NCBI GenBank assembly: GCA_903835265.1
Contig: CAILMG010000233.1
Location: forward strand, 1-34,040
DNA from: an uncultured Methylococcus sp.
GTDB taxonomy: Bacteria; Pseudomonadota; Gammaproteobacteria; Methylococcales; Methylococcaceae
Direction: 5' to 3'
DNA: 34,040 nt
In this document: piece by piece, positions 15,118 through 32,784 of the stretch
Layout of the letters: every line of letters begins with the position of its first letter
Numbering within the stretch: the first letter of the stretch is position 1
The notes under the pieces: model-generated
Databases searched by the model: none
The model's input: only the letters and a program-made list of their open reading frames with translations
Told to the model about the DNA's origin: nothing
Program-made: the position numbers and the translations under genes

Positions 15118-15232
15118 TTGGTTATGCAGCTTTGTTAGAACGAATATCAGGAGATTGGGGCGATCTATCCGCGGCGATCAGCGTGCTTCTCCTTGCCAAA
15201 ATAGCGGGTATGCATTAGCTTAGCTAGACCTA

Positions 15233-17286
<2,054 letters not shown>

Positions 17287-17638: not shown

Positions 17639-18493
17639 TCAGGCGTTGATGGAGAGTTTCAGCCGTTTCATGGCCGAGGCCTCAAGTTGGCGAATTCGCT
17701 CTGCCGACACATTATATCGGGCCGCTAGGTCATGAAGCGTCAGCTTACCCTCATTCAACCAGCGGCTTCTCACGATATCCTGGCTGCGATCATCCAGTTG
17801 CTCGATGGCCTGTATCAGTCGCTTTTCGTGGTGAGCGTCCCAATCCGCTTCTTCCAGAACATCAGCGGGGTCGGCATGCCCCTGCTGAAGATAATGCGCG
17901 GGGGCGAGGGATTCTCGCTCACTGTCGTCGGCATCATCCGGGGCATCATAGGCGAGATCCTGACTGCTCAGGCGACCTTCCATCTCATAGACCGCCGCAA
18001 GGTCAACGCCGAGTTCTTCGGCAACGGTTTGGGCCTCATTTTCTGTCAGCCACCCTAATTGCGTCTTGTATTTCCGGAGATTGAAAAAGAGTTTCCGCTG
18101 CGCTTTGGTGGTCGCGACCTTGACGATACGCCAGTTTTGGATGATGTATTCATGGATTTCAGCCTTGATCCAATGGACCGCAAATGAAACCAGGCGAACG
18201 CCCATGTCAGGATCAAATCGCTTGACGGCCTTCATCAGACCGATATTCCCCTCCTGGATCAAGTCAGGCAGGGCAAGGCCGTAGCCCAGATAGCCCCGGG
18301 CAACGTGAGCCACAAAGCGGAGATTGGCCATCACCAACGCCCGAGCGGCCTCAAGATCGCCGGATTCCCGGAATCGCTGAGCGAGCGCGCGCTCTTGCTC
18401 CACGTCCAGCCGAGGAAGTTTGGCAATCGCCGACATGTAGCTGTCGATGGAGCCCACCGAAGCGTTAAATGGTAATGAAAGTTCACGGGTCAT
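17639..18493 (-). CDS. rpoH: RNA polymerase sigma factor RpoH (sigma-32)
   Basis: This is the heat-shock sigma factor, 284 residues, the usual length. Region 2 is clear: 'NLRFVAHVARGYLGYGLALP' and 'DLIQEGNIGLMKAVKRFDP', with the -10 recognition helix 'VHWIKAEIHEYIIQNWRIVK'. The RpoH box 'QRKLFFNLRKYK' (about residues 132-143) separates it from other group 2 sigmas. Region 4 ends with 'YNVSAERIRQLEASAMKRLK'. The ATG at 18491-18493 has GGGGGA about 9 bases upstream. It follows ftsE-ftsX on the same strand, the classical gammaproteobacterial order. A perfect CIRCE operator lies 41 bases before the start, so HrcA probably represses it, an unusual link for a sigma-32 gene. The downstream 84-residue gene may share its transcript. 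Confidence 0.98.
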   Translation of the reverse strand: MTRELSLPFNASVGSIDSYMSAIAKLPRLDVEQERALAQRFRESGDLEAARALVMANLRFVAHVARGYLGYGLALPDLIQEGNIGLMKAVKRFDPDMGVRLVSFAVHWIKAEIHEYIIQNWRIVKVATTKAQRKLFFNLRKYKTQLGWLTENEAQTVAEELGVDLAAVYEMEGRLSSQDLAYDAPDDADDSERESLAPAHYLQQGHADPADVLEEADWDAHHEKRLIQAIEQLDDRSQDIVRSRWLNEGKLTLHDLAARYNVSAERIRQLEASAMKRLKLSINA

Positions 18494-18534
18494 GGTGACG
18501 GTCCCCCAGCACGATAGATGTTCACGAGATTATG

Positions 18535-18561
18535 TTAGCACTCTAGGACAGTGAGTGCTAA
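18535..18561. promoter_or_regulatory. CIRCE operator (HrcA binding site) upstream of rpoH
   Basis: TTAGCACTC-N9-GAGTGCTAA is present with all 18 consensus bases and the canonical 9-base spacer. The arms are 18535-18543 and 18553-18561. It lies in the 130-base gap between ftsX and rpoH, 41 bases before the rpoH ATG. Both genes are on the minus strand, so rpoH is the target. CIRCE normally controls groES-groEL, grpE-dnaK or hrcA itself. Confidence 0.95.
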
Positions 18562-18623
18562 TTGAAGTTCCCCCCAGGGATGAGCGGGCTCCGTGTGAAT
18601 CACTCTTGGGTTCTGATCGATCC

Positions 18624-19613
18624 TTAAAGCGGTTCGAGATCCTTTAGGAAATGATTGACGACGATGAAGGCGCCCACGATGCCCAGTACGATGGCGCTGC
18701 CCATCAACAGGGCCGTTCCGCGCAGGTCGAGGTAGGCAAGACGATAGGGGCTTCCATAGAGTTCGGCGAGTTCATTGGCGGGCGATTGAATACCAAGAAT
18801 GAGGAGGTTAGCCACCAGCCATGCCATGAGGGCTCCAAGAAAGGCATACCAAAAACCAGAATGGATAAAGGGCCGGCGGATGAAATGATCGGTCGCCCCC
18901 AGCATTTTATTGACGGCGATTTCTTCAAGTCGGCTTTGAAGTTCAAGCCGGATGGTATTACCGACAATGAAAACAACACCGAAGCCCAGAAGGATGCTGA
19001 AGGCGACGATACATCGCTCAGCGATAGCGAGGATGGCCCTTAATTTTTTTAACCACTCGTCATCGAATTGAACGTGATCGGCTTCTGATAAGCGGCGAAG
19101 CTCATCCAGCAACAGGGTCACGGCAGCCGCATCGGTCATCCGGGGCCGAACGAGAATGACCGCCGGTAGAGGGTTGCCGTGAAGCGCTGAAAGCGCATCA
19201 GCGAAGCCACTGTAGGCGATCAGCTCACGGAGTCCATCCTCTTTGGTGAGGATCTGTGTCCCAAGGATGAGGGGAAACCCCCCGAGTTTTTCGGTCAAGC
19301 GCCGAGCCGCCTCATTGGTGATCTCAGGCTTTAGGAAGAGGGAAATGTGGCTGGTGGTCTGGAGCGCTTCGATGGGTAAGCGCGCGTTTTGAATCAAGGC
19401 GTGAAAGCTTGCAGGAAGCGCTAGGGCGATGGCCACCACAAGAATGGTCAGACTACTCGCGATGGGCGTTTCCCAGATCCTGAGGAAGCTGCCTTGAAGC
19501 GAATGAAGGTGGGCCAGCGCGTAGGTTTTTAGGCGAACCGACCAGCGAATCTTTTGAGAGAGCGGCTGCCGAAAAGGCCCAGGCCGTCCTTTGGAGGAGC
19601 TGTTATTACGCAT
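18624..19613 (-). CDS. ftsX: Cell division ABC-like permease FtsX
   Basis: The inner-membrane partner of FtsE (329 residues) transmits ATPase cycles to periplasmic cell-wall hydrolase activators at the septum. The start ATG (19611-19613) overlaps the end of ftsE and has GGAGG seven bases upstream. The layout is typical: a basic cytoplasmic N terminus, TM1 (about residues 53-75, 'SLTILVVAIALALPASF') and a large periplasmic loop (about 80-190). Three C-terminal helices follow, with 'RLELQSRLEEIAVNKMLGAT' in the cytoplasmic loop, the conserved FtsX coupling segment. 'HPFI'-type 'RRPFIHSGFWYAFLGALMAW' and the final 'VNHFLKDLEPL' fit the family end. It is followed after 130 bases by rpoH. Confidence 0.95.
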   Translation of the reverse strand: MRNNSSSKGRPGPFRQPLSQKIRWSVRLKTYALAHLHSLQGSFLRIWETPIASSLTILVVAIALALPASFHALIQNARLPIEALQTTSHISLFLKPEITNEAARRLTEKLGGFPLILGTQILTKEDGLRELIAYSGFADALSALHGNPLPAVILVRPRMTDAAAVTLLLDELRRLSEADHVQFDDEWLKKLRAILAIAERCIVAFSILLGFGVVFIVGNTIRLELQSRLEEIAVNKMLGATDHFIRRPFIHSGFWYAFLGALMAWLVANLLILGIQSPANELAELYGSPYRLAYLDLRGTALLMGSAIVLGIVGAFIVVNHFLKDLEPL

Positions 19614-20277
19614 CGTTAAAACCTCCTTCCGTGAGCTTTCCATGGTCAAGGCGAAGGGTGCGCCGGCTGAAACGCTGGACCAGTTGTTGATCATGACTGG
19701 CAATCAGTAGTGTGACACCCACATCATTGAAATCACGGAACATCCGCATAATTTCCTCGGCAAGATCAGGATCGAGATTGCCGGTGGGTTCATCGGCAAG
19801 GATCAATGGCGGTTTGTGGACAATAGCCCGAGCAATTCCCACCCGTTGCTGTTCGCCCCCCGAGAGCGCCAGCGGTAGTCGTTTTTCCTTTTTGAGAAGA
19901 CCGACCTTGTCGAGTGCGGCGCGGACCCTCCGGGTAATATCGTCAGGATGATGCCCCATGATTTCTAGGGGTAGAGCGACATTGTCGAAGACGCTCAGAT
20001 GATTAAGCAAACGGTAGTCTTGAAAAATTAGACCCAGTTTCCGTCTTAGGTAGGGAATTTGTCGTTTGCGAAGGCCTTTGATGCTGATGCCATCAAGCAA
20101 AATGTCCCCGCGACTGGGTCGCTCAAGCGCTGCAATGAGGCGGAGTAGAGTGGTTTTGCCTGCGCCTGAATGTCCGGTCAAAAAAGCCAACTCGCCACGC
20201 TGGAGGCTAAAGCTGACCTCTGAGAGGGCCTCGCCACTGTCGGGGTAACGCTTGCTGACGTTGTCAAATTCGATCAT
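19606..20277 (-). CDS. ftsE: Cell division ATP-binding protein FtsE
   Basis: This is the 223-residue ATPase of the FtsEX complex. Walker A is GHSGAGKTT, the signature is [15 protein letters not shown], Walker B is [13 protein letters not shown] and the switch His is in '[11 protein letters not shown]'. '[19 protein letters not shown]' is characteristic of FtsE rather than LolD. The ATG at 20275-20277 ([18 protein letters not shown]) is the family start; the frame is open upstream, but that region is an intergenic inverted repeat. The stop overlaps the ftsX start by eight bases, so the pair is translationally coupled. ftsY, which often comes first, is absent here. The flippase gene is divergent instead. 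Confidence 0.97.
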
Positions 20278-20314
20278 GGCCTGAATCTTTTTTCCGGAAA
20301 CTGAGGGGATAGGG

Positions 20315-20351
20315 ATGGCCTTGGTGAAACAAAGCGCTCCACCAAGGCCAT
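20315..20351. repeat. Perfect 12-bp inverted repeat between ftsE and the flippase gene
   Basis: ATGGCCTTGGTG (20315-20326) and CACCAAGGCCAT (20340-20351) flank a 13-base spacer. No T-tract follows on either strand, so it is not a standard terminator. It sits in the divergent control region and could be a large operator or a leader hairpin of the ftsE transcript. Confidence 0.55.
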
Positions 20352-20409
20352 GGTATCCATTTGCAGCAAGACTTGGCAAAGGTCACTGGGACTCCCCGCT
20401 TTGGAGGAT

Positions 20410-32709: not shown

Positions 32710-32784
32710 TGGGGCGTAGCCAAGCGGTAAGGCACCGGGTTTTGATCCCGGCATGCCCAGGTTCGAATCCTGGCGCCCCAGCCA
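32710..32784 (+). tRNA. tRNA-Gln (anticodon TTG)
   Basis: The cloverleaf is complete. The acceptor stem TGGGGCG pairs with CGCCCCA, and a short D arm follows (TAGCCAAGCGGTAAGGC). The anticodon stem CCGGG/CCCGG encloses the loop TTTTGAT with anticodon TTG. The T arm is CCAGG-TTCGAAT-CCTGG, and the discriminator G and encoded CCA close the gene. It lies between ispE and prs, the standard place in many gammaproteobacteria, and is probably processed from the operon transcript. Confidence 0.98.

Follow-up and report, generated by a model that had tools for sequence, protein, structure and literature searches.

In the window (the whole stretch of 34,040 nucleotides analysed here), a perfect CIRCE operator lies immediately in front of rpoH, the gene for sigma-32. 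We consider it likely that this CIRCE is a genuine HrcA operator acting on rpoH transcription, and that a sigma-E-type promoter and a weaker, housekeeping-like promoter are combined with it in a single composite switch. The sequence evidence described below lends strong support to HrcA control of rpoH; HrcA binding at rpoH, the use of the two promoters, the sensing through GroEL, and the direction of the effect are inferred. With somewhat less assurance, we think it probable that a large part of the Gammaproteobacteria shares a conserved rpoH switch, built on an HrcA operator and a sigma-E promoter with bases in common, through which the cytoplasmic chaperone status vetoes the envelope-stress input to sigma-32, and that rpoH is the sole CIRCE target of HrcA in some lineages (Pseudoalteromonas and Alishewanella).

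The operator and the promoter elements in front of rpoH

The rpoH gene (17639-18493, minus strand) matches NCBIfam TIGR02392 with 392 bits, above the cut-off. Its upstream neighbours are the ftsX ORF (18624-19703, minus strand; TIGR00439), the true start of which probably lies further inside the ORF, and ftsE (19606-20379, minus strand; TIGR02673), both also above their NCBIfam cut-offs. Since all three genes are co-oriented, the 130 bp that separate ftsX from rpoH can serve rpoH only. The CIRCE operator, TTAGCACTC-N9-GAGTGCTAA, occupies 18535-18561, with 41 bp between its end and the rpoH ATG. It agrees with the consensus at 18 of 18 positions and is the sole match in the window when up to three mismatches are allowed, while none of 100 dinucleotide shuffles yielded any match at that stringency. 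The original prediction, which described a perfect CIRCE here with rpoH as its only possible target, is therefore borne out on both points. Elsewhere in the window, Rfam detects a TPP riboswitch (15228-15333, plus strand) directly 5′ of a thiC-like ORF (15361-17286) and a tRNA gene (32710-32781, plus strand) between ispE-like and prs-like ORFs; the same search of the window found no known RNA element at rpoH.

A predicted sigma-E promoter is threaded through the operator. Its −35 element, GGAACTT (18565-18571, minus strand), lies 3 bp upstream of the CIRCE and is kept across relatives, and its −10 element, TCCTA (18544-18548, minus strand), lies inside the N9 of the CIRCE after a 16-bp spacer. 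The order on the minus strand is thus GGAACTT-CAATTAGCACTCACTG-TCCTA-GAGTGCTAACAT, which matches the pattern of the E. coli rpoH P3 type (GGAACTT, 16-bp spacer, TCnnA), with a −10 that is weak and weaker than in most relatives. The register (offset 13) is common to the genus of the window, as compared to an offset of 7 in most relatives. Within the genus, the motif is GGAACTT or GGAACCG, 16 bp, and TCCTA, TCGTA, or TCTGA, the last occurring in the congener L007 in place of TCCTA. In the relatives, the −10 usually consists of the TC of the left arm and the first bases of the N9 (TC-TAA, TC-CAA, or TC-AAA).

The operator also carries a putative housekeeping-like promoter, which in the window is predicted to be weak. 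The right arm of the CIRCE followed by NAT reads TGC-TAANAT, which resembles an extended −10 element; in the window it is TGCTAACAT, where the arm and three flanking bases form TGC-TAACAT (18532-18540, minus strand), with a −35-like TTAGCA (18556-18561) located 18 bp upstream. This combination scores 8 of 12 by our count, under the threshold of the consensus scan, and a standard sigma-70 promoter scan of the 130-bp gap returned nothing above threshold. Across the family, an extended −10-like promoter in the rpoH CIRCE is probable: the T at the third position after the CIRCE (position 30, the final T of TAANAT) is found in 90 of 101 rpoH sites, 0 of 28 groES sites, and 1 of 25 hrcA sites. At groES of the Methylococcales, the CIRCE lies after a TTGACA/TATNAT promoter.

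Could HrcA repress the housekeeping promoter only, with GGAACTT being a relic or a chance match and sigma-E having no action on rpoH here? The weak TCCTA of the window would fit this explanation, as would the 40 of 101 CIRCE-bearing rpoH upstreams in which no sigma-E motif is recognisable at the chosen stringency. However, the motif stands in register across the genus, and class-wide it is far more frequent than in shuffled sequence. When a GAAC-bearing −35, a spacer of 15-17 bp, and TCNNA are required, it is present in 61 of the 101 distinct CIRCE-bearing rpoH upstreams, and 50 of these 61 share one register. Shuffling the flanks with their dinucleotides kept gave a mean of 1.8 and a maximum of 5 in 200 trials, a figure that is not a probability, as the sequences are related, although the pattern spans many families. 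The motif is absent from all 28 groES CIRCE sites, and GAAC does not occur in register at any of the 25 hrcA CIRCE sites. Moreover, direct action of sigma-E on rpoH, including binding, is documented in Salmonella (PMC4577112) and Vibrio alginolyticus (PMC4890791). We therefore regard the relic or chance explanation as unlikely. At the level of sequence, a sigma-E-type promoter is interlocked with the CIRCE at rpoH.

HrcA in the same genome and the conservation of the rpoH site

The original prediction had proposed that hrcA and further CIRCE sites be sought in the same genome, and both are present. The genome contains a single clear copy of hrcA (PF01628, E=1.9e-59; TIGR00331, 315 bits), as the first gene of hrcA-grpE-dnaK-dnaJ, in which grpE, dnaK, and dnaJ were named from their own sequences. 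A scan of the whole 2.45-Mb genome with up to three mismatches found three CIRCE sites: perfect ones at groES and rpoH, and one with two mismatches at the start of hrcA. The reversed pattern gave two matches per strand in the same genome at the same stringency, so that the hrcA site is unconvincing when taken alone; at the hrcA loci of relatives, a wider search (up to four mismatches) found a CIRCE at the same place in 28 of 30. The gene for sigma-E, rpoE, is present as well, split over two contig ends that cover positions 4-115 and 132-190 of TIGR02939, each piece on its own falling below the cut-off. The closest named record is “Methylococcus sp. UBA6136”, with 76% RpoH identity, and the next best are Methylococcales.

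Conservation in relatives, which had likewise been put forward as a check, extends well beyond the genus. A CIRCE with up to three mismatches precedes rpoH at 50 of 56 loci in the Methylococcales (including that of the window) and at 104 of 136 loci overall, with many other Gammaproteobacteria among them. The named loci that bear it include Methylobacter, Methylomonas, Pseudoalteromonas, Alishewanella, Rheinheimera, Dyella, and Ketobacter. The rpoH loci of Legionella, Shewanella, Alteromonas, and Tolumonas have no CIRCE, and our hrcA search finds no hrcA in these genomes either. Among 80 named loci, CIRCE and hrcA are both present in 48 and both absent in 23, while 6 have the CIRCE only and 3 have hrcA only (Fisher p=1.3e-11). 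All six CIRCE-only loci come from metagenome-assembled genomes, where hrcA could be absent from the assembly alone. L102, which is one of the three hrcA-only loci, belongs to a Thiotrichaceae assembly with two rpoH copies, the second of which (L105) bears a CIRCE. Thioploca has hrcA and an rpoH without CIRCE.

The fate of the site after the loss of the repressor can be followed in one genus of the Methylococcales (g20). In the species with hrcA, the rpoH CIRCE has two mismatches, while in two species without hrcA it has decayed to four and six mismatches and the sigma-E-type GAAC-N-TCTTA motif is kept at the same place. The pattern is the one that would be expected from repressor loss under continued selection on the promoter. 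The original claim of HrcA control over rpoH is thus supported by the co-variation with hrcA and by the decay after its loss; what it had missed is the overlap with the sigma-E-type promoter.

In Pseudoalteromonas (three genomes) and Alishewanella (L235 and L237-L239), the single CIRCE in the genome at up to two mismatches is the one at rpoH. HrcA is divergent in this set, with E-values between 2e-8 and 7e-40, and the gene adjoins a grpE-like gene in both loci inspected. In these lineages, rpoH may be the only output of HrcA, which would make HrcA a dedicated rpoH regulator.

These distributions bear on a further explanation, in which the rpoH CIRCE is an inert remnant with little effect, and sigma-32 is controlled chiefly, as in E. 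coli, through its translation and stability. In favour of it, RpoH of the window has an intact RpoH-box sequence (QRKLFFNLR), and chaperones therefore probably still exert feedback on the protein. A neutral site, however, would not remain perfect over such distances, nor would it be the last CIRCE left in some Alteromonadales, and we consider this explanation quite improbable. The idea that the inverted repeat acts in the rpoH mRNA, on stability or translation, rather than as a DNA operator is rejected as highly improbable: judging from the layout, readthrough from ftsEX could transcribe the repeat, located as it is shortly before the start codon, but the predicted promoter starts lie inside it and would omit the left arm, shuffled versions of the predicted 5′ leader are more structured than the leader itself (z=+2.0), and the base-level conservation fits CIRCE and tracks the presence of hrcA.

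Two loci, L049 (2815-2872) and L091 (2905-2963), carry two tandem CIRCE-like repeats before rpoH, one with zero or one mismatch and one with three, which are possibly two operators.

Proposed regulation of rpoH

In Bacillus subtilis, HrcA activity is known to depend on GroEL. On this basis, we propose that HrcA is active and sits on the CIRCE when free GroEL is plentiful, which would keep rpoH low. In this position, HrcA would cover the sigma-E −10 element and the span from the housekeeping −35 to the −10, and both promoters would be blocked. When misfolded proteins occupy GroEL, HrcA would become inactive, and groESL, hrcA-grpE-dnaK-dnaJ, and rpoH would be derepressed together. Sigma-E would then drive rpoH only with HrcA off, when the envelope is also stressed. 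As read from the promoter region, the rpoH circuit would be one of three inputs (HrcA/GroEL, sigma-E, and the housekeeping sigma factor), and would go beyond a repressor placed over an activator. Readthrough from ftsEX could be a further source of rpoH mRNA.

HrcA and sigma-32 are usually portrayed as parallel heat-shock strategies, and the model organism E. coli is without hrcA. If the switch works as we infer, many Gammaproteobacteria place the repressor over the activator, and the state seen in E. coli may be derived, having arisen by loss of the brake and retention of the sigma-E promoter. It would also constitute a testable logic gate, with rpoH activated by sigma-E only once GroEL is occupied.

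Precedents and the class-wide occurrence of the composite element

How does this arrangement compare with the known systems? To our knowledge, E. coli has no hrcA, and it was not among the control genomes with a match in our hrcA search. Its gene order, ftsX-rpoH, is the same as in the window, and its rpoH P3 promoter, GAACTT-N16-TCnnA, likewise lies between the two genes; our motif finder recovers this promoter as TGAACTT-16-TCTGA. In contrast, the E. coli upstream region lacks a CIRCE (the best match has eight mismatches), and HrcA does not gate the promoter there. The CIRCE sequence, the repressor family, and the link to chaperonin genes (the groESL and dnaK operons) are shared with Bacillus subtilis, Agrobacterium, and others. 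In those organisms, the CIRCE targets are chaperones; the target in the window is a sigma factor, with predicted promoter elements within the operator.

The nearest precedent is Geobacter sulfurreducens, in which Rodionov et al. (2004; PMC545781, table 8) had already predicted a CIRCE in front of rpoH. There, a perfect CIRCE is located at −51 of rpoH, and CIRCE sites are also found at groESL and hrcA-grpE-dnaK-dnaJ. The arrangement of a CIRCE before rpoH is therefore, on the strength of that table, not new by itself. G. sulfurreducens differs in being a deltaproteobacterium, and the entry in table 8 describes no interlocked sigma-E promoter. Our search of the literature, mostly of open papers, found neither a CIRCE at a gammaproteobacterial rpoH nor an overlap with a sigma-E promoter; priority of Permina and Gelfand 2003 is possible.

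The composite element was also sought without reference to genes, using the pattern GAAC-N11/12-TTNGCACTC-NNA-N6-GAGTGCTA in 369 genomes spread over the Gammaproteobacteria. It occurs in 119 of them, as compared to none for the reversed-pattern control, and this prevalence is a lower bound because the pattern misses the register of the window itself. The gene hrcA is present in 113 of the 119 genomes with the composite element, versus 155 of the 250 others (p=6e-13). In a phylum-wide sample, the element was found in six genomes inside the Gammaproteobacteria and in none outside. All 120 matches were inspected: 117 lie before rpoH (those of genomes G014 and G043 being the rpoH loci L023 and L180), two before hrcA, and one before a ClpB-like gene, at L303 (G211:C8:47854).
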